Positions 38,521 to 64,000 of a DNA stretch of 64,000 bases are shown here, piece by piece. Numbering within the stretch: the first letter of the stretch is position 1; every line of letters begins with the position of its first letter. The notes beneath the pieces are model-generated. The model saw only the letters and a program-made list of their open reading frames with translations. It ran no database searches and was not told the origin of the DNA. The stretch comes from Lepiota brunneoincarnata (taxonomy: Eukaryota > Basidiomycota > Agaricomycetes > Agaricales > Agaricaceae): contig JAEBUN010000035.1 in the NCBI GenBank assembly GCA_023014365.1, positions 124,001 through 188,000 on the forward strand, in the 5' to 3' direction. The translations under genes and the position numbers were made by a program.

Positions 38521-40693
38521 TTATATACAAACCTGTATACTATGTTATAAATCCTTTCCTATGCTCAACAGCAACAAGAAAATTAAGAGAAAATAGATCT
38601 AAGCTACTTGCGAGACAGAGAAGGTGAAACAAGGGGTGAAATGTGAAGTTTTCATAGCTACGTGAGGAGAGGATTATGAAATATGAAGGATAATTATCAA
38701 AATAGTGGTCTGTGAGGCATACAGAGGTCTATATACAGGGAGAAAACTTATTTTATAGTTCATGATCAGGGAAAAGAATAGAAATGGAGTGAAAATATAT
38801 CTGACAAAGAATGAAGGAGGTTTTGAGTGAAAATGGATATGTTGCAAAATGATAATGGCTCTGATCAGCTGGGCACTCCAAGTTTCTTGATCCAGGGTTC
38901 AATCTGGGTTCAGGTTTCAGGTTCCAAGTCCTATGAGAGGTGGCATAGGGTGCCTGTTGCAGGTGTAGCTGCTTCCCCACCTCTACATCTCCTAGGTACT
39001 TAAGAAACTGACCTCCCGGTCAGAGCAATGGTGGGTTTGCAAGCATTTGAGGGGAGCCAAAAATTTGTGGGAAAGAGAGGTGGAGAGAGTGTCAAAGAGT
39101 TATTGAGGGCAGAAATGGTGAAGTTGGCAGCAACAGGAGGACATGGTGAATGAGGTGGCTGAACACCTAATTCAGCTTGAGGGGAGCTAGTGCTAGGGTA
39201 CCAAAGTTCAGTTCAGGGTTTGAACAGGTTCAAACTTGAACTTTTTTGTTCTATGTCATAAAAAGTGTTTATATCAGTAATACACTAATCAAAGTTCCAT
39301 TCCTTGAGCTCCTATTCCTTTACTTCTACTCCCCTATCTAAAAGTCCAGTTTTATACCCATCTTTTCCATACACATATATTAGCCCCCTCCAAAAAAAGA
39401 AAAATCAGGTACAAATAACCAAGGATGGGTAGGAAGGGTGAATAAGAGTAAAATGTTAGAATATGAGTGATCATTAGCCTCAGACACTCATATATGCAAG
39501 AACTGATGTATTCTATACCTGTTAGAAGACAAGTAATAGTCATAAGAGAAAAGTGAAAAAGACTACTCACAGCCTCAGAAACTTGTATGTGTGACTCTGT
39601 TAGAATTGAGACTGCAGGGAATTCTTGCTATGGTATTTAAGGTAAAGCCAGAACAATAAAGGGAGTAGATAATGATCCTGGCATGCTGGCTACCTTCTAC
39701 ATAGAGGGTGAGAGAAATAAAATGCTCAGGAGCTAAACCACAGGGAGGTGGGTGATCATGGGGACAAGCAGTCAATGCTTGGACCCCCTGTGTACCATGA
39801 CACTCACAATTGGTTTTTATTTCCAACATAAAAAAGATAAGCCCAAGTATGTTGAAGAAAGGCAGTGGGGCCAGAAGCCTTGCAAGGAGGGAAAGTGATG
39901 AGACAACAAAGATCCTCAAATTGCAGGACAACTGCCAAGCACAACTGGACATGAGTGAGCTTGTTGGAAGGGCACAGTAGAGACCTTCCAGATGTGAGTT
40001 AGTGTGTCCCAAGGTGTTGATAAATGGCCCCAGAACAGAGACATCTGTGTGGGGATGGTGATCAGCAAGGAAAACATGTTTTGCTTTACTGAAAGAGTGT
40101 TTCCCAGGATGTGCAATATGGCATTGGAAAGCCCTTAGAGCTGCACATTTAAGAGTGGCAGTTGTATGAAGGTTGGCAAGTCCAAGAGGGGAGGCAAGTG
40201 TCACTGAGCTGAGTCAAGGAGAGGGAGAGATTGTGACAGAACTTTCGAGATAGAGGGTATATATTTTTCACTCCCAGATGAATCCCCTAAGGTCCTACTT
40301 AAATACTGTAGAGAAAATAATGCTACATTATTTGCCGGCTACCAGAGAAGACAGCAAATGCATGTGAAAAGGAGTGAAATTATATAACTACAAGAGGCCA
40401 TGTAAGTGAAACAAAAATGTAGCAAGGACAGTTTTTCGTGAAACAGGAACATGTAGAAAAACTTACAAGTATGCTAGGAAGGAAAAGGTAGCTAGAAGGA
40501 AAGAGAGGGAATGGCTGAACTAAAGGTGTAGAAAAAAACTTAAGGAATGAAGAAAATTTTACATATTTTTCAACAGGAGGGAACTTATCTGAAGACTGGG
40601 GGTATGTGTGGTCCAGGGTTGTTGCTCTGTTCCATTGTTTGTCATCTGAGTCTGATGCTCATCTTCTTCTGTACCATTTCCATGTGTAGCTGG
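38521..40693. other. CpG-poor region, nothing recognised
   Basis: Almost CpG-free, TG/CA-rich. A 209-codon minus frame (39,575-40,204) has no recognisable motif and is probably a by-product of stop-codon depletion. Likely decayed transposon. Confidence 0.4.
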
Positions 40694-42003
40694 TGATATG
40701 CCAATTTCACGCCTATACATGAATTCCATACTCCGGAACGATTCTCTACATAGAATCATTGGCTATATCATTAAAGAACTCTATAGAGGATTGGTACTAT
40801 ATCCCGTAGTAGCCAGTTCGACTGAACTGAGGATATTCAAGCCTCGGAAGTGTTCAAACCAGCTCATTATCACTAAGCTTAGTGAACCAAGCTATCAGAA
40901 CGCTCTCCAGAGGGATTCAGGACTCTACATAGCCTATCGAGTATACCCCGGTCGCATCAAGGGACCTTACAAGCAGTTTTCTGATGAACCCGAATGCGTT
41001 TGAACATAAAAGAATGTACCTAGCGGCTGTCGCAGGTGTATTACGTCTATAGCAAGTTCAATAATGATGACCGGACCATGGAACGGAACGTCCAACGTTT
41101 GGGAGGCAATACCCGATGCCCAAAACCCTAGATCCCTAGAAATATCAAAGACTCCTAATTAACGAGTGCTTTGGGGGTCCCAGCACTTCGGCATACTACT
41201 TAACTGAGATTAATTACAACGGATCAAGGAATTGTCCATCCGCTATACATTCCGATCATAATTGATCAGGAAACTTAACGCGCTTGCGTGGACGCAGAAT
41301 AATGCGGACGAGCATGGAACACGTCTGGCTGGATTGCCATTCGTTAATCAGAGAAAAACCCATAACCCAGGGTGAGGTAGAAATGCTGCCGAACCTTCCA
41401 AAATGTTCTACAGTGCCTGTAACAATTAAGCTTATTGTTTTCTATTTCATATTTACTATCTCTCGTATGTATCCAAACAATATAAATACAGTCGCACTTG
41501 TTCGTGGAGAAGCAAGAGGTCTCACCCCCGCTTCCACACTGCAAGTCTGCGAGCCGTGATCAAGAACGGTTTCAGAGGGCTATTTAGTGTGTGTCGTTAA
41601 GTGTGATTTCTTCGGTCGTCAACCAACCCAGAGACAGAGACAGAGACCAGAGTTCAGAGTTTAGAGTTCCAGAGTGCTAGAGACAGAGACAGAGACAGAG
41701 ACCAGAGTTCAGAGACCAGAGACCAGAGACCAGAGACCCAGCGCTTTGAATTGACAGGGATTGTCCTTTCATTGTTGCACCGTACGGCTAAGATAACTTC
41801 AACAGCTGTTTGTTAACCTCTAAAAACACTACTCTCTTGAATTTCGCTGTCAGAACGCACCCCCAGAACACCCTAAAAGATGAAACTGTTCGTTATCTAT
41901 CTCATTCCACTTGTATTAGCTTAAGCTTATCGAATTGCGGCTAAGCTTAGTGAAAACAAGCCCACTATCTATATTAAAACCTACGGAAGTTTCTACCTTT
42001 TCA
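40694..42003 (+). repeat. 5' LTR of element 3 (LTR A)
   Basis: Runs TGATATGCCAATTTCACGCC ... CTACCTTTTCA (TG...CA). Nearly the same as LTR B, C and D. It carries a TATA box at 41,481, a GACAGA/GACCAGA purine repeat (41,627-41,745), and TAAGCTTA at 40,874, 41,427, 41,922 and 41,942. Confidence 0.85.
41481..41488 (+). promoter_or_regulatory. TATA box of LTR A
   Basis: TATAAATA, conserved in LTR B, C (55,475-55,482) and D. It likely sets the retrotransposon transcript start and so the U3/R boundary shortly downstream. Confidence 0.5.
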
Positions 42004-42005
42004 TC

Positions 42006-42022
42006 TGGAGCCCACCGCGAGG
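42006..42022 (+). other. Primer-binding site
   Basis: TGGAGCCCACCGCGAGG begins two bases after the 5' LTR. Starting with TGG, the complement of a tRNA 3' CCA end, is the normal form. The priming tRNA cannot be named without a tRNA search. Confidence 0.6.
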
Positions 42023-42277
42023 GGGGTTTTCAGTTGAATTTCACGAGACAAACACCAAAAGACTTGGACACTAGGCCCACCTTTCACCTGCGAAGCAGAA
42101 AAAGGTTCAAGCAAAGACCGTAAAGTCACCCAAAACGTCCTTCAAGAACAGTCTCAGGAAGGTCGACCCCCCAAAACAGAGAACTACTCGGAATTCCAAT
42201 CGTCCAGAAGGTTCTGAAGGCCTCATCGCCGCTAGTACCTCTCTGAAAGCTGAAAAGATCCCGTTAACTCTTTAGCT

Positions 42278-44943
42278 GTGAACACAGCGAGTGGTTCAGC
42301 AGTTGCAGTATCGAGAGAAGTCGCACCGCCGACCTCTACTGCTCCCAGAATTACTATAAGGCTTCCAGCCTCAGCTCGCAACATAGCGCATATTCTGCAC
42401 ACCGAAAGCCAGGACGGTCAGACCGTTCCTACGCTAAGCTTAGCGTTTACAAACCAAAACTCGTTTCATACAAACCCTCCTGGTGCCTCTACGGTACCAC
42501 AGATATCACAGTCAACTCCAACTGTACAGACAAACCAAACTATGCTGTCTACGATGACTACAGCTAGTAAAATGGGACACGAGCGTATGCCAATTCCCTT
42601 TAGCAATAATGCTCCCAGATGGGATGCATCAAAACCACAGACATTGAGAAATTATCTCTGGACGCTTGAACGGCTCTTCATGATAATGAAGACGATGGAC
42701 GATGCAGAAAGGATAAATTGGGCAGTGTCATATGTGGACCAGGATATCCATGAAGAGTGGATGAGTTTTGCTGGAGTTCCCAGCAGGAAGCTGGACAGGC
42801 TTCATAGAGAGATTGAAGAAAGAGTATCCCGAGACTGTGGCAGCCGAGCAGGGCTCAGTGCGACGATTGAGGGAACTCTGCACAGAGAGTAGAGGCATTG
42901 CGATGAATGAGGAGCATAAAGTCTTGGACTTTAAAAGGCGATTCATTCTCGAGGCAGAGAAGTGTCTGAAGTCGCCGGCGGTAGTCTCGAACCGAGAACT
43001 AGTCGAGTTATTTACGAGCGCACTGGACTCGGTGTTCCAGGATGTACTCAATACGAGATTAGCCGATCACCTGGGGCGTGTAGAACCACGAGCGACGGGT
43101 CGGCACTAACTGCTGAAGGATTTACGCGAAGAGGACCCCTATGATGGGAGGATCGTCGTGGATAAAGCCATCGAAATTTCGATTGGCAAAACACTTATGC
43201 AATCCCTTCATCAGGATTCAAGGCCGGTGAAAAGGAAGAAACTTTCGTAGATTTTAATATAGATAGTGGGCTTGTTTTCACTAAGCTTAGCCTGCAATTC
43301 GATAAGCTTAAGCTAATACAAGTGGAATGATATAGATAATGAACAGTTTCGTCTTTTAGGGTGTTCTGGGGGTGCGTTCTGACAGCGAAATTCAAGAGAG
43401 TAGTGTTTTTAGAGGTTAACAAACAGCCGTTGAAGTTATCTTAGCCATACAGTGCAACAATGAAAGGACAATCCCTGTCAATTCAAAGTGCTGGGTCTCT
43501 GGTCTCTGGTCTCTGGTCTCTGAACTCTGGTCTCTGTCTCTGTCTCTGTCTCTAACACTCTGGAACTCTAAACTCTGAACTCTGGTCTCTGTCTCTGTCT
43601 CTGGGTTGGTTGACGACCGAAGAAATCACACTTAACGACACACACTAAATAGCCCTCTGAAACCGTTCTTGATCATGGCTTGCAGACTTGCGTGTGGAAG
43701 CGGGGGTGAGACCTCTTGCTTCTTCACGAACAAGTGCAACCGTATTTATATTGTTTAGATACATACAGGAGATAGTAAATATGAAATAGAAAACAATAAG
43801 CTTAATTGTTACAGGCACTGTAGAACATTTTGGAAGGTTCGGCAGCATTTCTACCTCACCCTGGGTTATGGGTTTTTCTCTGATTAACGAATGGCAATCC
43901 AGCCAGACGTGTTCCGTGCTCGTCTGCATTATTCTGCGTCCACGCGAGCGCGTTAAGTTTCCGGATCAATTATGATTGGAATGTATAGTGGATGGACAAT
44001 TCCTTGATCTGTTGTAATTAATCTCAGTTAAGCAGTATGCCGAAGTGCTGGGACCCCCAAAGCACTCGTTAATTAGGAGTCTTTGATATTTCTAGGTTTT
44101 TGGGCATCAGGTATTGCCTCCCGAATGTTGGACGTTCCGTTCCGTGGTCCGGTCATCATTATTGAACTCGCTATAGACATAATACGCCTGTGACAGCCGC
44201 TAGGTACATTCTTTTATGTTTAAATGCATTCGGGTTCATCAGAAAACTGCTTGTAAGGTCCCTTGATGCGACCGGGGTATACTCGATAGGCTATGTAGAG
44301 CCCTGAATCCCTCCGGAGAGCATTCTGATAGCTTGGTTCACTAAGCTTAGTGATAATGAGCTGGTTTGAACACTTCCAAGGCTCGAATATCCTTAGTTCG
44401 GTCAAACTGGCTACTACGGGATATAGTACCAATCCTCTATAGAGTTCTTTAATGATATAGCCAATGATTCTATGTAGAGAATCGTTCCGGAGTACAGAAT
44501 TCATGTATAGGCGTGAAATCGGCGTATCACCGGTGAACTCGGCATCAATGAGCCATCCACCTGCGACGTCTGGAACAGGGACTTATGACCCTGTAGTAAA
44601 GTGAGAGCTGCAAAGCTTAAAACAGAAGTTTCAGGATGAAGTCTCGCAGATGGCAGGTGGTCTTGCTGAGCTTAAGGACCTCATGAATATCCAGGGGCAT
44701 ACCTTAAAATCATATTTAGAGAGCTTGGCGAAAGACGGACATAATCATGCCGGTTATAACCACGCTCAGAGGAATACCGGAAGTGGGTCGGCAGGGTCGC
44801 TTTCTGACCGCAAGTGTTTCTACTGCTGGTTATTAGGGCATAGTTGGTTATTCTGCCTGGACATGGAGGTGGATAAGCAAGCTGGCCAAATTAGAGTCGA
44901 AGGGAACAAAATATATATGGGAGATGGCTCGAGTATCCCTTGA
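42278..44943 (+). pseudogene. gag of element 3, split by a nested solo LTR
   Basis: First part 42,278-43,228: APRWDASKPQTLRNYLWTLE, YVDQDIHEEWMSFAG, then after a +1 shift near 42,770 PAGSWTGFIERLKKEYPE, HKVLDFKRRFILEAEKCL, LGRVEPRATGRH (stop TAA 43,107). The second part resumes at 44,530 after the LTR: QKFQDEVSQMAGGLAELKDL and a CCHC zinc knuckle CFYCWLLGHSWLFC (CX2CX4HX4C), which binds the RNA genome. TGA stops at 44,602 and 44,941 fall where R (CGA) fits. No ATG start was found; the opening frame is also broken. Gag forms the virus-like particle. Confidence 0.75.
43229..44529 (-). mobile_element. Nested solo LTR (LTR B), inverted
   Basis: 1,301 bp, minus orientation, flanked by CCGGT at 43,224-43,228 and 44,530-44,534, a clean 5-bp target-site duplication. 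Removing it and one CCGGT restores the gag frame. TAAGCTTA at 43,280, 43,301, 43,797 and 44,342. Its CpGs are intact, so it inserted late or escaped mutation. Confidence 0.85.
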
Positions 44944-45500
44944 GGAGAAGGGCCTATTAAAGAGAAAGTGGCAAAGTACTATGCGACAAAGGGACAACTC
45001 TTCGTTCAGATACCAGAACTGCCGGAGGTTGAGCCTGAGTTACTGCAAGTGCCAACTTCAGTGGTGTTTGCACAGAGAGCGTTCCTGAGGTCAGAAAACC
45101 AAAGGTCACCAGCGGAAGAAGAAGTCCGCCGTCTGAAGCAGTGCATGGAAATGTTGGAGACAGTTGCCATCCATGCTGGGAGTGCCCCAAAGGTTAAGCT
45201 TATGACCAGAAAGGATGATAATGTCAAGATACAGTCTTTGGCCGAGCAATTGGCCCAGATACAGGCTAAGCTTAGCAGTTTGACGGATGGTACACCCTCG
45301 GCAAGCCAGTATTTGGACACCAGAAGTGGCGCGAAGACTAGGAACTCGGAGTCGGGTTTCTAAAGGGTTCGAGGAAGGAGCCGGCTCTGAAGAAGAAGGT
45401 CGCCTTTGCCAGAGGACAGACTCCTGAGGACATGTCGGATTCCAAGCGATCAGAAGAATCAGAAAATGAGGAAATAGGGCAGACAATGGAGAAACCAATG
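44530..45500 (+). pseudogene. gag-protease linker region of element 3
   Basis: After the knuckle: GPIKEKVAKYYATKGQLFVQ, a coiled-coil-like stretch around 45,115-45,280 (EEEVRRLKQCMEMLETV, SLAEQLAQIQAKLSSL), then KGSRKEPALKKKVAFARGQ in a second frame. Single-base shifts lie near 45,350 and 45,490. TAAGCTTA occurs at 45,195 and 45,267. Confidence 0.6.
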
Positions 45501-45502
45501 CT

Positions 45503-46474
45503 GTGCCAGCAGCAGGAGAATTACCATATAAAAATGTGAAACCACTGCGCCCGGTCGTTGAGGTACCACCACTGCCTGTCAGAAGGATGGAACCATCCAA
45601 GAAGGAGCCTGCGTATAAGCACCAGGCCCCTATAGAGAGGAATGTCGATGTTGAGGAAGTACTCAGCAGGGTATTGAAGCGAGAAGCCTCAGTATCGCAT
45701 GGAGAACTCTTGGCATTGTCACCGATATACAGGAATGCTTATAGAGAGCGCATTATGAGAAAACGGGTACCCACGAGTCAAAGCTTAATAGCAGGAGTAG
45801 GGCCCGGGGACGATGATACAGAAGATATAGAGATTAATAGTGGGCCAGTACAAGTCATGATAACGGAGCTAGCAGACGGTCCTCGGAAGTATGATACGGT
45901 GCTCCGAGAAGGCTCGGCAACCCAAGCCTGGGTAGCTCAGGATCCAATCATGCAGTACTTGGAGTCACTACCCCGAAGAGACAGGGGACAACAAGTGTTT
46001 ATTGCGAAAGAATGCGAGCCGTTGAGAGTAGTGCCAACTCTGATAAATGGGATTCGGCAGGAAGAGGCCTTGCTAGATAGCAGGTCACAGATCGTCTCCA
46101 TGAGTCAGGAAGCGGCGATTGCATGTCAAGTTTCTTGGGACCTAGATACTACGATAAATTTGCAGAGTGCGAATGGGCAGGTTGAAAAGACTTGTGGATT
46201 GGCAAAGAACGTAGGCTTTACCTGCGGGAGAGTCACAATCTATTTGCAAGTTCACATCGTTCGTAGCCCCATGTATCGAGTACTCCTGGGACGACCCTTT
46301 GATGTAATGACGGCTAGCAAAGTCAGGAATAGCGCCAGTGGCGAGCAAACCTTGGTTATTACGGACCCAACTACCAGAGAAAGGGCTGTGTTACCAACTT
46401 ATGCTCAAGGAGAGTGTAATCCTCCTAAGCTTAGGGAAAACAGTCAAAATTTTCAAGAAACCTCAACGAGTTGA
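45503..46474 (+). pseudogene. Protease domain of element 3 (active-site Gly lost)
   Basis: Contains LINGIRQEEALLDSRSQIVS: the aspartic protease signature should be LLDSGSQ, so the D-S-G triad is D-S-R. AGC GGG to AGC AGG is a CpG-to-CpA change on this strand, i.e. C to T on the other. Further on MYRVLLGRPFDVMTASKV is the usual (L)LGRP(F/W) downstream element of gypsy proteases. The frame changes to the RT frame at about 46,470. Confidence 0.7.
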
Positions 46475-47653
46475 CTGAGGGACAAGGAGAGGTGGCTTGT
46501 ATAATAGACTATGATGATGAGAAGGGCCCTGTCGTCGCACAAACACTAAGCTTAGCAAAAGGAAGCTTCTCAGAGGCCAAGCTACAGCTAATGTTTATTG
46601 ACCGAGTCATATGCGATGAGGACTGCCCACAGGAAGATAAAGCAACAGCGTTATTGTGCCTAGGACGCATAGCCAACGCGCAGGGCACAGAGGACCAGGG
46701 AATAACTGTCTTCGAAACAGAAGAAGATGACGAAGATACGGTACAATGCCTGGCTGGGAAGAAATATAAACCAGTAGCCTTAAAAGTGAGGCCAGTGTTG
46801 GGTGATCTACCGGAGAGATTCAGGATAAAACGAGAAATAAAAGGGGACCCACTGGCAGAAATGCCTGAGCTTAGCGTGCATCCTCCAGAGTTTGTCCCAA
46901 CAGGCAGATATACGGAGGAGTGTAAGCTTAAGCTGGACGAAGCCCATGCAGGGAATTTCTTGTGGCCAGAGGAAAGAAAGCTGATGCACCACATCATGAT
47001 GCTTCAAGAAAAGGCATTCGCCTGGACAGATGAGGAAAAGGGATGTTTTAGGGAAGATTTCTTCCCACCAATCGAGATACCAATGGTAGAACATACTCCG
47101 TGGGTTGAGAAGCCCATTCCGATTCCACCAGCGATCTATGATGAAGTTTGTGCCATTATAAAGAGAAAGATTAGTGCTGGTGTATATGAGCCGTCGAACT
47201 CATCCTATAGATCCAGATGGTTCTGTGTGGTGAAGAAAGATGGGAAAAGTTTGAGACTGGTATACAGCTTGGAACCGCTGAACAAAGTGACGATAGCGCA
47301 TTCAGGACTGCCGCCAGCAACAGGAAGATTTGGCAATGCACTTCGCAGGCAGAGCTTGCGGAGGCATTCTGGATCTATATGTTGGCTATGACGAACGACT
47401 GTTAGCTGAGTTGTCTCGGGACTTAACAACGTTCCAGACGCCTTTTGGAGCGCTACGCTTAGTGATGTTACCCATGGGATGGACCAATTCAGTGCCTATA
47501 TTTCATGAGGATGTAACAGCGATCCTGGCCAGTGAGATACCAGAATACACGATGCCGTACATAGATGATGTACCTATCAGAGGACCCAAAACTAGATATG
47601 AGTTGCCAGATGGCACGGAAGAGACGCTGAAAGAAAACCCAGGGATCCGATGA
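46471..47653 (+). pseudogene. Reverse transcriptase of element 3
   Basis: PPIEIPMVEHTPWVEKPIPI, then KRKISAGVYEPSNSSYRSRW FCVVKKDGKSLRLV split here for length, LDLYVGYDERLLAELSRDLT, TFQTPFGALRLVMLPMGWTN, and the catalytic MPYIDDVPI (YxDD, two of the three metal-binding Asp; the first is in LDLYVGYDER). A +1 insertion near 47,325 and a TGA at 47,651 (IR*FVWEH, an arginine codon CGA by context) interrupt it. Copies element RNA into DNA in the particle. Confidence 0.85.
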
Positions 47654-47668
47654 TTTGTATGGGAACAC

Positions 47669-49171
47669 ATGCAGACGGTCAATAGGATTCTACAGAGGAT
47701 GAAATATGTAGGAGGAACCTTCTCTGGGCCCAAGACGACTATCTGCGCTGATGAAATCACCGTAGTGGGTTTTGAATGCTCTTATAAAGGACGGTTGCCT
47801 GCCACAGACACCATTGGGAAGATATTAAGATGGGGGGATTGCAAGAATGTCTCCGAGCTAAGGGGTTTTCTAGGAACAGCTACGCGCTGCAGGAATCATA
47901 TCCCGAAGTTCATAGCCATTGCTGCACCTCTATACGAAAAGCTTAAGAAAGGGCAAGAGTTTGAATGGGGAGAAAATGAACGGAAAGCACAGCAGGAGCT
48001 GAAAGATGCGATTCAACGCTGTTTCCCGACCAGGAACCCCGAATTCCCGAGTAAACAACCCATAGTAGTAGCCGTGGATACCTCATGGAGGGCAGTGGGA
48101 TACTACATATATCAGCGAGATGGAGAAGACGCTAAGCTTATACATTATGCGAAGTTTGGGTCAATATTATTGGACGAGAGACAGCAGAGGTATTCTCAGC
48201 CCAAGCGAGAGCTATGCGGCTTAAGAATGGTGCTGGAACAGGAGAAATATTTGTTGTGGGGATCGAGAAATCTAGTAGTGGAAACAGACGCGAAGTTTCT
48301 CTTTGGGATGTTAAACAACCCAGGAAAACTCCCAAACACTACTGTAAACCATTGGGTGGACTTCATTAGATCGTTCCACTTCACACTAGTACACAAAGAA
48401 GGAAAGACATTTGGGCCGGATGGACTGTCCAGACGACGTTACTATCCCGGTGATGAGACAGCCCGTCGTTTCGACGATGGATCCGAGGACGAGGGAGAGG
48501 AGTTCGAGTTGATCAAAGAAGATCCGGGGGCTGCAGATCCGTTACCCTTGGAAGCCTTCTGTGATAAGATCGACAGTCGCTCTGGCTTCTACCAGGGTCT
48601 GGCGCATGATGTGTATGATTTTGAGTATGAGCTGGATCAAGCTCGGGAAGAGTACTTGGATGAACAACAGGCTAAGCTTAGGGTTATAGAAGACCCAGCC
48701 TGTCCAGAAAACCATCGACAAGTACTAAGCTTAATGACGGATGTCAGGCTAGTGCCAGATTTCGAAGAGGAAAAGTTGACCGAGATAGAGGAAGCATATG
48801 ATGAGTTGCGCAGGACAAATACAGCACGAATACAGGACAAAAGAATACCCAAAGTCAGGGAATACCTGAAAACAGGGGGCAGTAGCGCAGCTGAAGGCTT
48901 GGATGAGCCGGATCTGCGTAAGCTTAAGCATATGGTGGAGCATTTCTTCTTGGACAAAGAGGGGAGACTGTATAGGATGAGCCCTAGTGGTCAGCATCAG
49001 CTAGTAGTGGATAAGGAGCAATGTATGTATATGTTGCGAGCCAGCCATGACTTCCTAGGACACAGGGGAATATACGCAGCCACTAAGCTTATAACGCAGA
49101 GGTTCTGGTGGCCGGAAGTTGAAGGAGATGTAGCTTGGTATGTGCAATCGTGCCATCTATGCCAGCAATGA
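47669..49171 (+). pseudogene. RT connection, RNase H and integrase N-terminus of element 3
   Basis: 500 open codons: FLGTATRCRNHIPKFIAIAA (RT thumb/connection), AVDTSWRAVGYYIYQRDGED and ELCGLRMVLEQEKYLLWGSR (RNase H), VETDAKFLFGMLNNPG and GPDGLSRRRYYPGDE, an acidic linker, then the HHCC zinc domain: SHDFLGHRGIYAATKLITQR FWWP (split) and SCHLCQQ. It ends at TGA 49,169 in [12 protein letters not shown] where CGA fits. Nine exact TAAGCTTA are found in the pol coding region between 46,426 and 49,841. Confidence 0.85.
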
Positions 49172-50221
49172 CAAAAGGCGATCATCGAGACACCGCCAAT
49201 AGTAACGCCCACGCTGTCGATATTCCAAGTGCTACATGTGGACACACTACATATGACGCCAAGTTCTAATGGGTGTAGTTATATTGTGCATGGAAGGTGT
49301 GGACTGTCATCCTGGATGGAGGCAAAAGCTTTGAGAAAAGAGAATGCTAGTTCGATTGTGCAGTGGTTATTTGAAGATATCATTTGCCGATGGGGCTGTA
49401 TAGTGAAGATTGTCATGGACAACGGTTCTCCATTTAAGAAAGCTGTTCGATGGCTGGAAGAAAAATATGGGATAAAAGGAGTAATGATATCTCCTTACAA
49501 TTCCAAAGCGAACGGGATTATTGAAAGAGCCCACTGGGATGTGTGGCAAATGTTGTACAAAGCTACAGATGGAGATGTCAAAAAGTGGTATTGGCACCTA
49601 CCGCACGTTATGTGGGCAGATCGGATAACCATTAGAAAAGGAATGGGGTGTTCCCCGTACTTTCTGGTAACCGGAGCGCACCCAACACTACCTCTGGATG
49701 TCAAAGAGGCCACTTGGCTAGTACAACTACCAAATAAGTACTTAACCATGGCCGAGTTGATAGGATACCAAGCTCAGGCTTTGGCAAAACATGTTTGGCA
49801 TGTTGAGGAGGTGCGTCAGCGTGTTTCAGACACTAAGCTTAGTGAGGCTTGGGAGATGGAACAACAAGCAGCGCATAAGATAAAAGATTATCGCTTCGGC
49901 CCGGGAGATTTAGTATTAGTGAGAAACACAGCTATAGAGAGCTCAGCGGACAGGAAGATGAAACCCAGGTATCTAGGACCCATGGTGGTCATATCTAGAT
50001 CAAAGGGAGGATCATATATCCTGGCAGAGTTGGATGGCTCTGTATGGCAGAATAAAGTGGCAGCGTTCAGAGTAATTCCCTACTTAGCCAGAAAACATAT
50101 GCTGTTGCCGCTGGAGTTACAAGAGTTGTTAGATCTGTTGCCAGAGGGACTGAAGACCCTGGAGGAGACTACTGAGGATGAGCCTAGTGACAGATGGGAG
50201 CCAGAAGAGTTGGAGGGATAG
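49172..50221 (+). pseudogene. Integrase catalytic core and C-terminus of element 3
   Basis: The DDE triad is visible: LHVDTLHM (D), IVMDNGSPF (D), NGIIERAH (E, 35 residues after the second D). Then [36 protein letters not shown] and [20 protein letters not shown], the GPY/F module typical of gypsy integrases. No chromodomain follows; the acidic tail ends at 50,219. Inserts element cDNA into the host genome. Confidence 0.85.
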
Positions 50222-50297
50222 AAAAAACCTGATATTGTGGACAGAACTATCTACTTATCGAAGGAAAACTATCCTGGGGACTGTAAAAGCGTTAAGC

Positions 50298-51645
50298 TTA
50301 AGCGGGGGAGGGCTTGTTCAAGTCGGAAAGGTTGCGCAAAAGACTTTTGAGATGGATGCGCTCTTGAATAAGGAATTGGAACCTCTTTAAGTTAGCTTCG
50401 AGCGAGGGAATAGCCTCGATGAAGTCCCGGCTGAGCGAATTGAGGTCGCATTTGACAGACCGAGCATCGTCACTGCAAGATTCGGACTTGTACTTGTCGC
50501 AAGAGTAAGACAGGAGGTTTTGGAGTTCCTGGAGCAAACGAGCTGCCCGGAACAAGTGTCAGAACCACTAAGCTTAGCAAACAGAAGTGAGAAATTGCCC
50601 ACCGGATAAGCCTGCGAAGGTGCGCTCATCGGAAGCAGACTTGGTACGGGCACGCTTGGCAGTATTGGCGCTGGCTTTGGCTAGAACCTGTTCAGCCCGG
50701 ACATAACAGCAGTGTTTAGTGTTCATATTGGGAACTTGACAATAGGAAAGAAGACAGACGGTGCCTTTAGACGATGAGGACTTTTTGACAGGTCTCCTAA
50801 AGAGGGAGGAAGTCAGAATCAGTGGTTGGGGGGAGTGGAGCTGGCGCACCACGTCGGAGGTAGACAAACGACGCTTGCGATAAGGCGAGACTACACGAAC
50901 CTCTTCGACAATAGCTTGAGAGACCTCCTCATCGACCATCATGTCCTGGAGGTGAGCGATTATCTCAGCCAATGTAATAGGTTGAGAAGCAGCTATATTA
51001 CCGTGTCAGCACCGGTTGCTCGGGAGTTGGATGCACTGGTCATACTCTCAGCAAGCTCGGTATCGGTGTCTACCACAACAGCAGCAGAGACAGGGGCCTT
51101 GCGACCTTTGCGAGGCTAAGCTTATACATGAGGAGACGATTGGAGCCAAAAGAACGCTAAGCTTATGCGTTTGGGGACAGTAGAGCCTTCGGCAACATTG
51201 GAGGAGGTAGAGCCAGTCGTGGATGATGGGTTCTGAGCCTCTTCGGTCCTGGATTTGTGGGATTCTTCAGAACAAACGCGATTAATGCGGCTACAGCATT
51301 CAGAGAGCGCCTTATAGATCGCGGGCATCTCATAAGACAAATGGTAGTTGTTTTGGTAAATTTCGTAGAGCTTGCGGATACGGAAGACGTAGTCCTGGTT
51401 GACATGAAGCTTGATAGCCTCATTATCCTCCGATAACGCTTCAATATAAGCAGACTAGAAATGATTTAGAAACGGCGAGAGAAGCATGGAAAGAGTAGAC
51501 ATACCCCAGGGGCGTCGAACGCAAGGAGAGCCTTCTCGACGAGGGGACGAGCGACTTGGCCATTTTGCAGGCGCTGAAGATGACCTTTGGCGTTGCTGAT
51601 GAGATCGTCGAGCTCGACCTGGAGATGGGGGATAGAAGAAGCCAT
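50298..51645 (-). CDS. Antisense accessory gene 1 of element 3 (helical, basic, cysteine-containing protein)
   Basis: Minus strand. Exon 1 51,505-51,645 (47 codons, MASSIPHLQVELDDLISNAK ...), 50-nt intron 51,455-51,504 (GTATGT...TTCTAG), exon 2 SAYIEALSEDNEAIKLHVNQ, YEIYQNNYHLSYEMPAIYKA, CCSRINRVCSEES, then Ser/Thr-rich sequence and PRKGRKAPVSAAVVVDTD. Later open stretches (exact joins unresolved): ITLAEIIAHLQDMMVDEEVS, SPYRKRRLSTSDVV, CCYVRAEQVLAKASANTAKR, and ARLLQELQNLLSYSCDKYKS to a stop at 50,298. Mostly helical with basic nuclear-signal-like patches (KRARTK, YRKRR). It is not gag, pol or env; no family recognised. Head follows the same-strand gene 2, so the two may be co-expressed. Confidence 0.55.
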
Positions 51646-51920
51646 TTTCTTGCAAAGGGTGTCTGCTAGAATGAGGCGTCACTCCCTCGCTTTTATAAGA
51701 AAAGGCCAGTAGGCAGTGATGACGAATCATAACGAGTGGATGAAGAGCACCCTCCACCCTAAGCTTATGACCTGAGGGGCCTAGGAAACCTGTAATCTTG
51801 AGTAGCCAGCCTTCAACAGACTTGCTGAACCACAGTTGCCTTATTAGGTAACATGTCACCAGGGTCTCGCAGTTATCAGTGTGCACAGGGATTCTGATGG
51901 AACGGTGAGGGCACCGATTT

Positions 51921-51941
51921 CAATTTGGCTAGGGGGAGATG
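51921..51941 (+). other. Internal copy of the polypurine tract
   Basis: CAATTTGGCTAGGGGGAGAT G matches CAATTTGGTTAGGGGGAGAT G before the 3' LTR (54,676-54,696) at 20 of 21 positions. It lies in the gap between the two antisense genes. Confidence 0.65.
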
Positions 51942-52332
51942 GGCCCCAAGTGGCACAAGTGGCACTTCAGTTTTGTTTGACGCGACCTTTTTCGCAGCGA
52001 ACACCGTGTACAGGCTAGTTCGGGTCCGGGCTTGTAAGAAAACCAGAACGGATGACTGGGTCACTACGCGTTGTGGGTCACGGCGCGCTGAGATGTCAAT
52101 AAACATCACTGATAGATCAGAGAGGCATATAATGAGTATATAAGTGACTGGCAACCTAAACTAGCTTAGGAGTCTCCCAGGAGGTCTTTAGCTTAGCTTT
52201 AGGAGATGACAAGAAAGTCAGAAACAGTTTAGCTTAACTCAGTAGGAGACAAGGAACAACAAGATGACTATTGGGATGTATATACATGACAAGATTATAT
52301 ACTACATCCAAGAAGTAAACTAGGCGCAGAGA

Positions 52333-54367
52333 TCACTCAAGGTCTTCTAGAACAGACTCCGGATCCTGAGTCATCGGGAAAGCAAGGAAGAGAAGCGATT
52401 TGAGCTCCTCGAATTCCTCGTATGTCGGGACCCCTGGAAAGTTGTTGGCGAACTCAAAGAATGCCTGGACGTCTTCAAGGGAGTCGGCCATACCCATCTC
52501 TACAAAAGCCACGTCTTTACCGTCCAAGGCAGTCCTGGTAGCTTGCATCTCCTGGACAAATTGGTAAACTACACGGCGGTGGTGAAACGCCGAAGCCTCA
52601 GTAAGCGACGCGGTTCACCTCCAGGCTGACCAAGCTAGAGGACACAACACACGCGAATGCGGCCAGATCTAGAAAAATAAAGAGAATAAGAAAAGGGAAA
52701 AATAGTGAACAGAGAAACTTACGGTATTCACTGGTCAGTGAGGATGTGACCAGGGTGTTCGCAACGCCAGCCGAAACCCGGGGATGGTCCGCGAAGGTAC
52801 AAGGATAGTTGTACAAGTCGCAGCTGCAACACTTCTTACCCTTGCCCAGAGGCTCGCACTCCAACTTACGAGCAGCACAAGAAGGACACCGAGACCGAGG
52901 TGGCACGTACTGGAGCAGATGTCAAAGCTGTCAGTAAGGAACCACGAGAAAACTTGGAGAACGTACCAAAAGCTGGCTAGCTGCCAGCAGCCTAGGAAAG
53001 TCCTCACAAAAGAGCGGGACTGGGTGCCGGTATCCATGGTCCCGAATAATTTCAGCCTCAGAGCGCTGAACGTGAGCCTGGGGAACGTATTTCTTCGTCC
53101 GCATGTTGGAACTCTTCTTGGACGAAAGGACGCGTTGTTGACACGACGGGCCAGCATGAGGGGACTCTTGAGGGATCTCCGGAACCACCGGGCTAGGCAA
53201 ACGAGAAAGGATGGGGGTCGGAGAAGCTAAGAACGTGTCTTGAAAAACAAAAGTCGGTTCTTGAGGGGCAGGCGAAGGCTTCAGAAGGAGCTCCAAATCT
53301 GGAGAAGGAGAAATCTCCACAGCGCTTGCGGGAGACTCGACTGGAGCGCCAGCTAAGTGAGGTGGTGATGGTGTTGGGCACCTAGGCGAAGCCAGCACAT
53401 GTTGCCCATCCAGAGAAGAGGACCAGCTCAAGATTTTGAAGAGGTCGACTTGAGAGACCTCAGGGACTGGAGAACGCGATGCCGAGTTAGAACCCGCCAG
53501 GAATAAGGGGAGAGGGGGCGGCGTCGATGATTTCGCCCTCTGTTTGCCTTTAAGGGCAGCTGGTATACACTGCTAAAACAGAAGTCAGCGGAAAGAACAA
53601 ATATATCATGAAAAACGACTAAGCTTACGCGTTGAAGTAGCAGAAGAGAGTACGGGGGAAGAAGGCCGGTTTGTTGAAGGGCCCGGCACCTCCGAACCTG
53701 ATGCAATACCCAAGGGAGGGAGCACCAGCGAGTCTTCCTTGTCCAGGGTGCGCAGAGAGACGGCGAGAGGGGGCAGTGACATTGAACTGGACAAAGCCTC
53801 TGTGGATAATCCACCAGAGGGCCCGCCAACGGGGATACCTGACGAGGGTTCTGCGGAAAATCCGGCAGAGCTGCTCGTTGGTTGGATTGCACAACGAACA
53901 CAATGGAAATCACGTGTCTTGGCACTGGAGCGTACAAGGGAGAGGCCGGCGGAGGAGTTGGTTTGCGGGGTGGAGAGTATGGTGGAGGAGGGGTCCTTGC
54001 CACACCCACCTGACGATTTCCGCAAGCTCCTCAAGCTCCTCACCCTCCTCTAGCCCTCCTAGTACGCGGTGCTGGTGGTTCCCATTGAGGTAGGAGGTTG
54101 CGACGCGCCGGGAGGCGAATAGTGAGACCTAAAAGTAGAGAAAACATAAGTAAAGACAACGAGAACAGGGGAAAATGTGACTTACGTTGCGCGATCAATG
54201 ATGAAGGCGCACCTTGGGAAGCCATTGAGGCGTTGCTCAGCCCAGGGTAGCCTGAAAACAGTGTTAAGAAAACAGACAAAACTGTAACTCAAACTCTACT
54301 TACTGGAAGAAGAGTCTGAGTCCTCCTCGTAGCGAGCACGTTTGCTGCTGCGCGTGTTTCTGTCCAT
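52333..54367 (-). CDS. Antisense accessory gene 2 of element 3: Zn2Cys6 DNA-binding protein
   Basis: Minus strand, at least six exons. Exon 1 54,304-54,367 (MDRNTRSSKRARYEEDSDSS), exon 2 54,186-54,251, then Pro/Ser-rich exons (53,640-54,050; 52,980-53,575 with IPAALKGKQRAKSSTPPPLP and SEAEIIRDHGYRHPVPLFCE), exon 52,723-52,909 with the cluster CPSCAARKLECEPLGKGKKC CSCDLYNYPC (split): spacing CX2CX6CX8CX2CX6C, exactly a fungal binuclear cluster. C-terminal exon VYQFVQEMQATRTALDGKDV, ADSLEDVQAFFEFANNF, ending at 52,333. The joins at exon 3 and before the last exon are not frame-clean, so it may be damaged. Zn2Cys6 proteins bind DNA as monomers or dimers; here the likely target is the element or its host locus. 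Confidence 0.6.
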
Positions 54368-54675
54368 TGTTGATAGAAGTGGGCTTTGAAAAGTGAATAT
54401 GCGAGCAGGATAGACAAGTAAGAAGTGAGAGGGAGAATGAAAGAGATGAAACGAGACCTTGGGACATTTAAAAGACCCAATAACGAGATAAAAATTTAAG
54501 CTATAGCGACAAGAAGTTGATCTATACATTTAAACTCGGTGACATGACATCATTCTGAAATAAGCTTAGCGAAAGTGCGCTACCCTCGAAGCTGGTGAAC
54601 GTTCTAGACCATAGAGCGCGTCAGAGAGACTCAGATACTGCGAATTTGAAGGAGATAATGACTGAGGACAGTCAG

Positions 54676-54696
54676 CAATTTGGTTAGGGGGAGATG
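54676..54696 (+). other. 3' polypurine tract of element 3
   Basis: TTAGGGGGAGA directly precedes the TGATACG start of the 3' LTR, the usual plus-strand primer site. Confidence 0.7.
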
Positions 54697-55948
54697 ATAC
54701 GCCGATTTCACGCCTATACATGAATTCCGTACTCCGGAACGATTCTCTACATAGAATCATTGGCTATATCATTAAAGAACTCTATAGAGGATTGGTACTA
54801 TATCCCGTAGTAGCCAGTTCGACTGAACTGAGGATATTCGAGCCTTGGAAGTGTTCAAACCAGCTCATTATCACTAAGCTTAGTGAACCAAGCTATCAGA
54901 ACGCTCTCCGGAGGGATTCAGGACTCTACATAGCCTATCAAGTATACCCCGGTCGCATCAAGGGACCTTACAAGCAGTTTTCTGATGAACCCGAATGCGT
55001 TTGAACATAAAAGAATGTACCTAGTGGCTGTCGCAGGTGTATTACGTCTATAGCAAGTTCAATAATGATGACCGGACCACGGAACGGAACGTCCAATGTT
55101 CGGGAGGCAATACCCAATGCCCAAAACCCTAGAAATATCAAAGACTCCTAATTAACGAGTGCTTTGGGGGTCCCTGGCACTTTGGCATACTACTTAACTG
55201 AGATTAATTACAACGGATCAAGGAATTGTCCATCCGCTATACATTCCGATCATAATTGATCAGGAAACTTAACGCGCTCGCGTGGACACAGAATAATGTG
55301 GACGAGTACGGAACACGTCTGGCTGGATTGCCATTCGTTAATCAGAGAAAAACCCATAACCCAGGGTGAGGTAGAAATGCTGCCGAACCTTCCAAAATGT
55401 TCTACAGTGCCTGTAACAATTAAGCTTATTGTTTTCTATTTCATATTTACTATCTCTCGTATATATCCAAACAATATAAATATGGTCGCACTTGTTTGTG
55501 GAGAAGCAAGAGGTCTCACCCCTGCTTCCACACGCAAGTCTGCAAGCTGTGATCAAGAACGGTTTCAGAGGGCTATTTAGTGTGCGTCGTTAAGTGTGAT
55601 TTCTTCGGTCGTCGACCAACCCAGAGACAGAGACAGAGACCAGAGTTCAGAGACCAGAGACCAGAGACCAGAGACCAGAGACCCAGCACTTTGAATTGAC
55701 AGGGATTGTCCTTTCATTGTTGCACTGTATGGCTAAGATAACTTCAACGGCTGTTTGTTAACCTCTAAAAACACTACTCTCTTGAATTTCGCTGTCAGAA
55801 CGCACCCCCAGAACACCCTAAAAGACGAAACTGTTCGTTATCTATCTCATTCCACTTGTATTAGCTTAAGCTTATCGAATTGCAGCTAAGCTTAGTGAAA
55901 ACAAGCCCACTATCTATATTAAAACCTACGGAAGTTTCTACCTTTTCA
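54695..55948 (+). repeat. 3' LTR of element 3 (LTR C)
   Basis: TGATACGCCGATTTCACGCC ... CTACCTTTTCA. 1,254 bp; shorter than LTR A mainly because the purine repeat (55,622-55,682) has fewer units and CTAGATCC is missing near 55,130. CpGs intact. Confidence 0.85.
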
Positions 55949-57966
55949 CCAGGGGGCTACTCCCACATCTCCCCCTTTCTTTCAGATCACAACTGTCCTC
56001 AGTTGCCCTCACCATCATCTTCCACTGCTGCCAAATCTTCTGAATCCACAAATTCTGTAACTTCCAAATGAATGTGAGACCAAGGGTGATAGGGGATGAG
56101 ATGGTGCTGCACTGCAAAATCATTTTATTCATGAAATCACTAGCTAATAAAGTAACTAACTCTCCATTACTGAATAATATCAGTATATGGCCATGGTCAG
56201 ACACTGGGTGCGAGAGATTTAGAATACTATCTAAAATATGTGAAGGCAGACATCTCAGAAACAGAACCAGAACACCCAGACAAGTAAAAGTGATGTTAAC
56301 TAACTTATGGGTGACAAGGCTATGGAAGAATGACTCTGGTATGAATGTACCCAAGCATTGTATCCAATACTGTGTTAACTAAGATATTAGTTAAGATACT
56401 CATGACTGCACAAAAGACCCATTTCTTTGCCTCTGCCCTAGAAAGTGGACCAGTCGCAACACCTATGTCATCCGGATGGTACCTAGTCATAATAACAGGT
56501 CCAGGAGTGAATCTTGACAAAAGAATGTAGGGATTAGCTGAATGCCCTGACAAGAATGTCCCCTTGAAATGGTTCTGATGATATTGAAACCTAAGGGATT
56601 GAATGGGGGTATCCCAGAGGGTACTCAGGGAAGGATGCCCCCTCATAGAAACAAAAAGAGATCAGAAATGATGAACTAGAAAATGAAGATTGATAAGAAT
56701 AGAATAAGCTAATTAATTCTAGTGTTAGTCTACTACCTGAAGACTATGGAAGTGGACTTTAGAACATTAGGGTTGAAAAGCTCAGGTGTGGAGAGTCCGA
56801 GAATAAAATAAAAACCAATAGATAAACGTTAGCGAGGAAACTTGCTAACCCGGCTGGCTGTGATATAAATAGCCAGGCACCTAGGGAGCAAGTCCCTGAG
56901 AGCAAATTGATGTCGCTGATAATGGAACTCCTAGAATGATGCTCCTAAATGATGAGGAGACAATAAAATGATGAAGCTGAAGGCTTGTTTCAGGTATACC
57001 CATAAGTTAATTGTATATTGTTATAAAAACTTGTCTGTAAATTACATGGGAGGCAGGAAACTGCTTGCCTATTCCCCCCCCCTGATTGTATGGTCGATTA
57101 GGATAGGAATATAAAGCAATTTTACACGATTTTCTTCGGTCATAAGACCACCAGAGACTTAAAGAGTTATACTCTTTAAAACCAGACCCTTTGAAATGAT
57201 TGAGATATTGACAGACCCTTCTGCTTGACTTGAGAACTGAATACGAGTTGCTACGCCTCTTCGGTTCTTAAGTAGAAAGTTCACTAACTTCCGTTTCTTT
57301 GGGTTCCTCTTAGAGGCCTTGCCTCAGAAGTATACCATTGAATTGTAGAGCTGTTTAATTGAGAAGCGAACATAGTATGCTAGGGCCCATTGAAAACGCT
57401 GTCCACTAGGTCTATCTAGTTTAAAGATACTTACTGCAGGAGCTCGCTAGAAGCCTGTCTTGCTGAGTAGTATAAAAGTTTTATTGCCTTGTTCAGAAGC
57501 TGCAGTGCACTAGGGCCCGTTAGATAATGCTGTCCACTAGGCCTACTAGCTTAAAGACACTTACTGCAGGAGCTTGTCAAAAGCCTGTCTCGCTGGGTAG
57601 TGTAAATTTACAGTATTGTCAAGAGAAAAGGACATAGTATGCTAGGGCCCGTTAGAACACACTGTCTGCTAGGTCTACGGAGGTTCACTGATTGCAAAAG
57701 CTTGTGTTTTGCCTGACTTATTGAATTGTGAAGATATTAGTTAACATATTATATAGTAACGACCGTCAAAGTTCCCATTGTATTCAGATAGAACAACTGT
57801 CTGTCTAGTTGGAGACTAAGAGAATAACATACCAAAACCCTAAAAACACTAGAATCGAATATATTTCTGGAGATCTGTGACAACCTCTCCCCCACAAACT
57901 TATAAAGTCGGAATTAGCAAACCTGTTAACAAACTTTGTATTCAATCTGGTAAAGTAATCCGCATT
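55949..57966. other. CpG-poor region with decayed frames
   Basis: Short minus frames (55,938-56,354; 56,320-56,646) look like remnants of a membrane or unknown protein and are not assignable. CCCCCCCC at about 57,078 precedes an AT-rich stretch. Contains the tandem repeat at 57,372-57,730. Confidence 0.4.
57372..57730. repeat. About 133-bp tandem repeat, three imperfect units
   Basis: Units begin near 57,376, 57,510 and 57,640 with GCTAGGGCCCRTTRRA or GCACTAGGGCCCGTTAGA, followed by CTGTCCACTAGG, CTTACTGCAGGAGCT and GCCTGTCT. The third unit is more diverged at its end. Confidence 0.65.
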
Positions 57967-62692: not shown

Positions 62693-62762
62693 CTGCTCCT
62701 CCTCTTCCTATTAACCCTTCTAACTCTGCTACAGCTCCCCATACGAAACCTTTGACTTCTGT

Positions 62763-64000
62763 TGATATGCTGATTCACACCTATACATGAATTCTGTACT
62801 CCAGAATGATTCTGTACATAGAATCATTGGCTATATCATTAAAGAACTCTATAGAGGATTGGTACTATTTCCCATAGTAGCCAGTTTGACCAAATTGAGG
62901 ATATTCGAGCCTTGGAAGTGTTCAAACCAGTTCATTATCACTAAGCTTAGTGAACTAAGCTATCAGAATGCTCTCTGGAGGGATTCAGGACTCTACATAG
63001 CCTATCAAGTATACTCCAGTTGCATCAAGGGACCTTACAAGCAGTTCTCTGATGAACTCAGATTTGTTTGAACCCAAAAGAATGTACATACATAGTGGCT
63101 GTTGCAGGTGTATCATGCCAATAGCAAGCCCAATAATGATGACTAGACCACAGAACAGAATGTCCAATGCTTGGGAGGTGACACCCAATGCCCAAAACCC
63201 TAGAAATATCAAAGACTCATAATTAACAAGTGCTTTGTGGGTCCTGGCACCTCAGCATATTGCCTAACTGAGATTAATTACAACAGATCAAGGGATTGTC
63301 CATATGCTATACATGCCAATCAAAATTGATCTGGAGGCTTAATGCACTTGTGTGGACACAGAATAATGCAGACAAGCATGGAACACATCTGGCTGGATTG
63401 CCATTCATCAATCAGAGAGAAACCCATAACCCAAGGCAAGGTAGAAATGCTGCCGAACCTTCCAAAATATTCTGCAGTACCTATAACAATTAAGCTTATT
63501 GTTTTCTATTTCATATTTACTATCTCTCATATGTATCTAAACAATATAAATATGGTGGCGCTTGTTTGTGGAGAAGCAAGAGGTCTCACCCCCTCTTCCA
63601 CACACAAGTCTGCAAGCCATGATCAAGAACAGTTTCAGAGGGCTATTTAGTGTGTGTTGTTAAGTGTGATTTCTTCAGTTGTCAACCAACCCAGTGACAG
63701 AGACAGAGAACAGAGTTCAGAGGTTAGAGTTCTAGAGTGCTAGAGACAGAGACAGAGACAGAGACAGAGAACAAAAGTCAGAGACCAGAGACCAGAGACT
63801 AGAGACCCCACACTTTGAATTGACAGAGATTGTCCTTTCATTGTTGCACTGTACAGCTAAGATAACTTCAATGGCTGTTCATTAACCTCTAAAACACTAC
63901 TTACTTGAATTTTGCTGTCAGAATGCACCCCCAGAACACCCCAAAAGACGAAACTGTTCATTATCTATCTCATACCACTGGTATTAGCTTAAGTTTATCA
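62763..64000 (+). repeat. LTR D, related to element 3 LTR, CpG-depleted (runs off the window)
   Basis: Begins TGATATGCTGATTCACACC and follows LTR C collinearly to the window end. TAAGCTTA retained at 62,942 and 63,491; the site equivalent to 55,867 has become TAAGTTTA. Most CpG of LTR C are TG or CA here. Contains a GACAGA-type purine repeat at 63,695-63,800. Whether a full element or solo LTR follows is outside the window. Confidence 0.8.

Follow-up and report, generated by a model that had tools for sequence, protein, structure and literature searches.

A palindromic 8-mer dispersed through a Gypsy-type retrotransposon of Lepiota brunneoincarnata: candidate binding sites for an antisense-encoded protein

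The element and its predicted genes

The window analyzed here, a stretch of 64,000 nucleotides from the agaric Lepiota brunneoincarnata (assembly GCA_023014365.1, contig JAEBUN010000035.1, positions 124,001 to 188,000), contains a retrotransposon bounded by long terminal repeats (LTRs) and densely populated by the palindromic 8-mer TAAGCTTA. The exact word occurs 33 times in the window, with 31 copies between 40874 and 55894, inside the element, and two in a further LTR. Our recount reproduces the figures of the initial annotation, which was made by eye and reported 12 copies in the three LTRs of the element, 19 in its internal region and none in the first 40 kb of the window. The same four positions recur in all three of the related LTRs, and because these LTRs are copies of one another the 31 occurrences represent 4 + 19 = 23 independent sites.

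The presence of LTRs together with the order protease, reverse transcriptase, RNase H and integrase identifies the element as a Gypsy-type (Ty3) LTR retrotransposon, with the reverse transcriptase placed by position (Table 1); the open reading frame (ORF) at 46435-47391 gave no Pfam match, reverse transcriptase included. Two spliced genes are predicted on the opposite strand. Gene A contains an exon (52736-52915, hereafter the Zn exon) with the zinc-cluster-like cysteine spacing C-x2-C-x6-C-x8-C-x2-C-x6-C, while in gene B, which has no recognizable domain, the predicted TAA stop codon falls inside a copy of TAAGCTTA.

Table 1. Features of the element and of the adjoining part of the window
Feature	Position	Strand	Remarks
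5' LTR (TGATA...TTTTCA)	40694..42003	+	Four TAAGCTTA: 40874, 41427, 41922, 41942
gag-like ORF	42254..42892	+	Placed by position, no Pfam match; TAAGCTTA at 42435
Solo LTR of the same family, inverted, nested in gag region	43228..44529	-	CCGG at both edges; TAAGCTTA at 43282, 43303, 43797, 44342
Two gag/pol-region ORFs	44605-44943, 44944-45363	+	Placed by position; TAAGCTTA at 45195, 45267
Aspartic-protease-like ORF	45470..46474	+	gag-asp_proteas 25.8 bits, below cut-off of 28.2; TAAGCTTA at 46426
Putative reverse-transcriptase region, two ORFs (46435-47391, 47297-47653)	46435..47653	+	Placed by position; TAAGCTTA at 46547, 46923
RNase H and integrase zinc-binding domains (Pfam)	47654..49171	+	Integrase zinc-binding domain scores above cut-off; TAAGCTTA at 48133, 48673, 48726, 48919, 49084
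Integrase core (rve)	49172..50221	+	31.0 bits against cut-off of 32.6; TAAGCTTA at 49834
Predicted gene B	50298..51645	-	ATG at 51645, stop TAA at 50300-50298; exons from GT-AG signals; TAAGCTTA at 50293, 50569, 51117, 51158 (inside or at gene end)
TAAGCTTA upstream of gene B	51760..51767	.	Exact-word count
Predicted gene A	52333..54367	-	ATG at 54367; spliced, antisense to pol; exons from GT-AG signals
TAAGCTTA as predicted 5' splice site (GTAAGC) of gene A	53620..53627	-	Splice-signal model
TAAGCTTA between gene A start and 3' LTR	54561..54568	.	Exact-word count
3' LTR	54695..55948	+	97% identity to 5' LTR; four TAAGCTTA: 54875, 55421, 55867, 55887
LTR of another copy, cut by window end	62762..64000	+	89% identity; TAAGCTTA at 62942, 63491

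Density of the palindrome in the element and in the genome

Under a second-order Markov model 0.28 copies of TAAGCTTA are expected across the whole element, and the internal, non-LTR 11,381 bp hold 19 copies against 0.18 expected. In the plus-strand ORFs (5,886 bp) there are 12 copies, whereas 5,000 synonymous-codon shuffles averaged 0.14 and never exceeded three, a result which rules out codon bias as the cause of the density and bears out the same argument in the initial annotation. All 12 of these sites occupy the two reading frames in which the sense strand has no TAA codon, and they are translated as K-L at nine sites and as L-S-L at three.

Two observations had been named beforehand that would have spoken against a selected site, namely a comparable density of other palindromes in the element and an equal density of this one in host genes. 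The runner-up palindrome, GCTTAAGC, is present in six copies, every one of which overlaps a TAAGCTTA, and this excludes other palindromes of comparable density in the element; nor is the density of TAAGCTTA equaled in the neighboring 40 kb. The enriched unit is the full 8-mer, since 31 of the 37 occurrences of the HindIII-type 6-mer AAGCTT in the element lie within it, which rules out the 6-mer as the true unit. The word is also sharp, given that one-mismatch forms in the element number 12 and exact copies 31. The initial annotation further held that many sites extend to palindromes of 12-16 bp; this is correct for the eight of the 33 sites that reach at least 12 bp, but the palindrome ends at 10 bp in seven others and at 8 bp in 18. 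Tandem repetition in 40000-56500 is limited to three 7-bp CCAGAGA-type arrays within the LTRs (41628-41738, 43494-43604 and 55621-55683; 9 to 16 units, differing in length among the three LTRs), none of which holds a TAAGCTTA. The signal in the element is real, strong and unusual.

Across the genome (55.6 Mb, 95 contigs) we counted 5370 copies of TAAGCTTA, compared with 842 for the letter-reversed control and 419 for the isomeric palindrome TTAGCTAA. The first 100 listed sites span the initial 0.88 Mb of a single contig (C1), and for 96 of them a further copy is found within 3 kb, the right-hand neighbor of the last site lying outside this set; the rarity of the word outside the family is thus judged from 40 kb of the window and these 100 sites. 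Bases beside the core also appear to matter. A preference for G or C adjoining the core seems to exist because CTAAGCTTAG is strongly enriched genome-wide (2011 copies, reversed control 39), whereas ATAAGCTTAT is near background (34 copies, reversed control 24). In the window, 26 of the 46 half-sites that make up the 23 sites have G directly after CTTA. Because the flanks vary, a fixed-flank 10-mer is ruled out as a requirement.

The genomic distribution bears directly on whether the binder could be a host protein, that is, a transcription or chromatin factor that recognizes TAAGCTTA and whose sites the element has accumulated, as Drosophila gypsy has done with those of Su(Hw). For a dimeric host factor, a palindromic 8-mer within LTRs is typical, and the present data are compatible with more than one binder. 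Such a factor would, however, usually also have solitary sites at host promoters, and against it stand the near-confinement of the word to clusters in the 0.88 Mb surveyed and its absence from the first 40 kb of the window. We consider a host factor unlikely, if still the foremost of the alternatives to a binder encoded by gene A.

Conservation and turnover of sites among copies

The genome yielded at least 86 pol matches (85 of 1271 candidates scored) and at least 150 Zn-exon matches (150 of 204 scored), several of the latter being pieces of one copy. The best 30 pol loci and the best 30 Zn loci, which are the closest ones, were aligned together with three divergent copies, L070-L072, that are 75-82% identical to the window over the antisense genes. 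Pairwise diversity was lower inside motifs than outside them both at the pol loci (12 sites; 0.016 compared with 0.037, permutation p 0.027) and at the Zn loci (four sites; 0.022 compared with 0.058, permutation p 0.048). The same holds at synonymous third positions, which were variable in 2 of 27 cases inside motifs and in 240 of 1075 outside (matched p 0.028, Fisher 0.043).

In the aligned stretches of the three divergent copies we compared the sites with control 8-mers that are free of CpG and of equal G+C content. From the window to the divergent copies 14 of 19 sites were intact, compared with 36% of controls (435 of 1216; p 9e-4), and in the opposite direction 14 of 17 were intact, compared with 24% (436 of 1783; p 9e-7). 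When controls were additionally required to contain a GC dinucleotide, the contrast from the divergent copies to the window held (14 of 17 against 35 of 143, Fisher 5e-6).

Individual sites illustrate this stability. Those at 51117, 51158 and 53620 are intact in all four subfamily copies, and the splice-donor site at 53620 is intact in all 30 Zn-locus copies. In an alignment of eight LTRs, of which three are the near-identical copies of the window and which show 87-91% identity between subfamilies, the four LTR sites are intact in 7 of 7, 8 of 8, 5 of 7 and 5 of 6 LTRs. At 49834 the word is intact in 67 of 68 places with letters among the matches listed (100 of 115), which are ordered by flank match so that older copies are under-represented; the bases that follow it are GTG in the window and GCA or ACA in other copies.

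Not all of the comparisons are favorable to selection. With common variants only, the synonymous difference is 1 of 27 against 175 of 1075 (p 0.054); the divergent copies share history, which makes their p-values optimistic; under the stricter controls, 14 of 19 window sites are intact in the divergent copies compared with 34 of 66 controls, a weaker contrast (binomial p 0.04, Fisher 0.07); and in the pol segment of L071 none of three window sites is kept, with one base changed in each.

These data also bear on the possibility that the abundance is mutational or inherited without selection, the word having arisen early and been passively copied, or persisting because AT-rich, CpG-free 8-mers decay slowly. 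Relative to the window the old copies L070, L071 and L072 show an excess of C-to-T and G-to-A changes, matching what is expected for methylation-linked decay or a process like repeat-induced point mutation (RIP), and under such decay CpG-free words would last longer. The common descent of all copies and the reduced contrast with GC-containing controls point the same way. Nevertheless, matched CpG-free controls were less conserved in both directions, so that slow decay was judged insufficient as the cause of the conservation, synonymous sites are quieter inside motifs than outside, and copying leaves the initial 19 sites, where 0.18 are expected, unexplained. Abundance without selection is accordingly improbable in our judgment.

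Turnover of sites provides a further line of evidence. Among the 30 pol copies, the word stands at 46866 in 15 and at 46923, 57 bases away, in the remaining 15; no copy has both and none has neither. Each state belongs to a separate subfamily, and the two subfamilies differ at many linked positions, which is why we count one exchange of position and not fifteen. The number of sites per pol locus is nearly constant, with 11 in 27 loci, ten in one and nine in two; the five absences comprise three missing stretches and two changed words. In addition, L070 and L072 have a common site at 52958, where the window reads AGAACGTA, and a site near 52221 is found in L071 alone.

Taken together, the density of TAAGCTTA in ORFs and noncoding DNA, its conservation between subfamilies, the smaller number of synonymous changes within it and the single exchange of position support selection for a nucleic-acid recognition site, strongly as regards density and moderately as regards conservation. 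The initial annotation had proposed selection for a site in either DNA or RNA, and of the two our data mildly favor DNA, on the weak evidence that folded transcripts show no preference for leaving the sites unpaired. A function of the palindromes in genomic RNA, such as packaging or dimerization via self-complementary contacts, would be compatible with a full-length plus-strand RNA containing all internal sites and with the ability of a self-complementary sequence of 8 nucleotides to pair between RNAs. In local folds, however, the 23 sites were no more unpaired than 150 controls (raw values of 0.44 against 0.51 for the plus strand and 0.41 against 0.55 for the minus strand), which lends RNA contacts no support, and known RNA dimerization signals need far fewer than 23 dispersed sites. 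We regard a role in RNA as very improbable, the least probable of the explanations weighed here.

Candidate binding proteins and comparison with known systems

Given selection for a site in DNA, the copies of TAAGCTTA are candidate binding sites for a DNA-binding protein encoded on the antisense strand, with the product of gene A, which would presumably act as a dimer, the best candidate; we would put this identification somewhat short of an even chance, an estimate that rests mainly on the density result. Zn(2)-Cys(6) proteins have the spacing C-x2-C-x6-C-x5-12-C-x2-C-x6-9-C. The spacing in the Zn exon conforms to this pattern, and all six cysteines are kept in four of six aligned copies (window, L040, L069 and L071). 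A zinc-cluster protein is a plausible binder of TAAGCTTA. In the window itself gene A is apparently frame-interrupted, the open frame of the Zn exon being 107 amino acids long compared with 195 in many relatives.

Between the window and the divergent copies the ratio of nonsynonymous to synonymous substitution (dN/dS) is 0.08-0.14 for the Zn exon (dS above 1 and saturated), 0.19-0.29 for the middle exon of gene A, 0.06 for its C-terminal exon (one computable case) and 0.23-0.32 for exon 2 of gene B. Because these ratios are low, both antisense products look maintained, though L070-L072 are decayed copies themselves. In young copies dN/dS is 0.17-0.56 for gene A exons, 0.35 for gene B and 0.08-0.10 for pol. 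The synonymous distances differ along the element, dS between window and divergent copies ranging from about 0.4 to over 2 in gene A exons and being lower elsewhere (0.3-0.4 in gene B exon 2 and 0.2 in the integrase, the latter from one copy). This excess in gene A over gene B exon 2 or the integrase suggests mosaic subfamilies formed by recombination (window 50298-54367 compared with 49172-50221).

Several results count against gene A as the binder. The Zn exon scores 11.5-13.3 bits with the Pfam profile Zn_clus (PF00172), below the cut-off of 21, with a best E of 0.002, in two of six copies; its score with zf-ChsH2 is better (best E 1.7e-5, in two of six), where the match spans 17 profile positions and lies below cut-off where bits are given. 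A sequence search of the PDB with the Zn exon returned only a chance hemoglobin match, and a single-sequence AlphaFold model of it was poor and of low confidence. A cysteine is lost in two of the six Zn exons (the first in L070 and the second in L072), though these copies keep TAAGCTTA. Moreover, Zn2Cys6 proteins mostly bind CGG-type triplets and TAAGCTTA has no such triplet. Finally, what ties gene A to the motif is association within one family, a pattern that gene B or a host protein would fit equally well.

The product of gene B, alone or with that of gene A, could recognize the selected sites for the same self-addressing purpose. The conservation of its exon 2 between window and divergent copies, the absence of any Pfam family above cut-off and the four window sites inside or at the end of the gene are in keeping with this role, but no DNA-binding domain is recognizable in it and the single-sequence model of exon 2 is of low confidence. 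A search with the gene B exon found no homologue among proteins of similar length. We therefore hold gene B to be quite unlikely, and a little more so than a host factor.

With gene A as the preferred candidate, a mechanism may be envisaged in which a dimeric, element-encoded DNA binder recognizes the palindrome and selection has accumulated its sites throughout the element. Being palindromic and within reach of one-base changes, the site could be placed by selection in introns, in LTRs and in either of the coding frames that avoid the stop TAA. A high local density of TAAGCTTA would then mark the element's DNA amid host DNA, so that the whole element becomes an address, and binding would, by analogy with the VANC proteins and VANDAL elements discussed below, keep copies transcribed or free of silencing. 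The complete scheme, an address code in which an antisense zinc-cluster protein uses sites that point substitutions have built into LTRs, introns, a splice donor, a stop codon and a dozen spots in the codons to discriminate self from host and to counter silencing, is offered as a possibility that we consider doubtful, at about one chance in three in our estimation.

VANDAL elements are DNA transposons, in contrast to the Gypsy-type LTR retrotransposon described here. In Arabidopsis, VANDAL elements are rich in short motifs that VANC proteins bind, and these proteins remove silent marks (PMC5735166, PMC10398659). The parts of these accounts consulted show several similarities of VANDAL21 and VANC21 to the present family, which likewise has a dense short motif that is rare elsewhere, encodes extra proteins and exhibits turnover of motif number and position between subfamilies. 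They also indicate clear differences. The VANDAL motif YAGTATTAY is not palindromic, is mainly noncoding, often occurs in tandem repeats and has one orientation (PMC5735166), whereas TAAGCTTA is an exact palindrome, dispersed singly and outside tandem repeats, with 12 sites in plus-strand ORFs. Binding is proven for VANDAL in the same account, while here it is putative and deduced from DNA sequence. A scan of the antisense exons with Pfam profiles gave no VANC-like match; the scan covered Pfam profiles only, and a comparison with VANC sequences was not made.

Sireviruses, as far as the account consulted describes them, are also LTR retrotransposons, in which a single element may contain as many as about 22 copies of the same palindromic box (PMC2829016). 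Nearly all of those boxes have a CGG-CCG core; they are found near env and, within the LTR, ahead of the promoter, in plant Copia elements, and that account, in the part consulted, names no element-encoded binder (PMC2829016); here, in contrast, the core is AAGCTT and the boxes run through the whole element including its ORFs. Transposon-borne TET/JBP dioxygenases provide a comparison among fungal transposons with an extra gene thought to counter silencing, but in the portion of that work consulted the carriers are DNA transposons and the product is an enzyme (PMC12730594), rather than a putative DNA binder with a second protein and a cis motif. At the level of titles and abstracts, preprints excluded, we found no report of the TAAGCTTA motif in a retrotransposon and no fungal Gypsy element described with antisense genes of this kind, and the matches listed for literature containing TAAGCTTA included no transposon title.

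It is still an open question how transposons can escape silencing while the host genome stays masked, and one sequence-specific case, in Arabidopsis, has been worked out well. If the address code holds, it would give both LTR retrotransposons and fungal genomes their first sequence-specific anti-silencing system, and it would be the first case in which protein-coding sequence itself carries the address, with a transposon's own DNA-binding protein shaping protein-coding DNA. A second, independently evolved case would generalize the idea of self-recognition and, offering a sharp 8-bp site together with two candidate genes, open it to simple binding assays.

Relatives of the element's proteins were also sought elsewhere. 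Searches with the integrase ORF in IMG/VR and with a relative's Zn ORF in GTDB genomes found no relative. Within the genome a lone homologue of gene A lies at L069:3917-5474 (G000:C35:352701-362700), with 48-62% identity depending on the aligned piece; its six cysteines are intact and its predicted exon chain is open, and the 10 kb around it contain no LTR match, no pol match and no TAAGCTTA. A twin of its Zn exon with 96% identity is found at G000:C60:120568-120807. The L069 gene may be a copy retained by the host, which could act on the element in trans.

Elsewhere in the window, a weak RVT_1 match on the minus strand at 60602-61333 (E 0.0038, below cut-off), where no palindrome occurs, is possibly a piece of another retroelement. 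At the borders of the element itself, the sequences flanking the outer LTRs, AGCTGG (40688-40693) and CCAGGG (55949-55954), form no direct target-site repeat, and for this reason the element may have arisen by recombination between two insertions.

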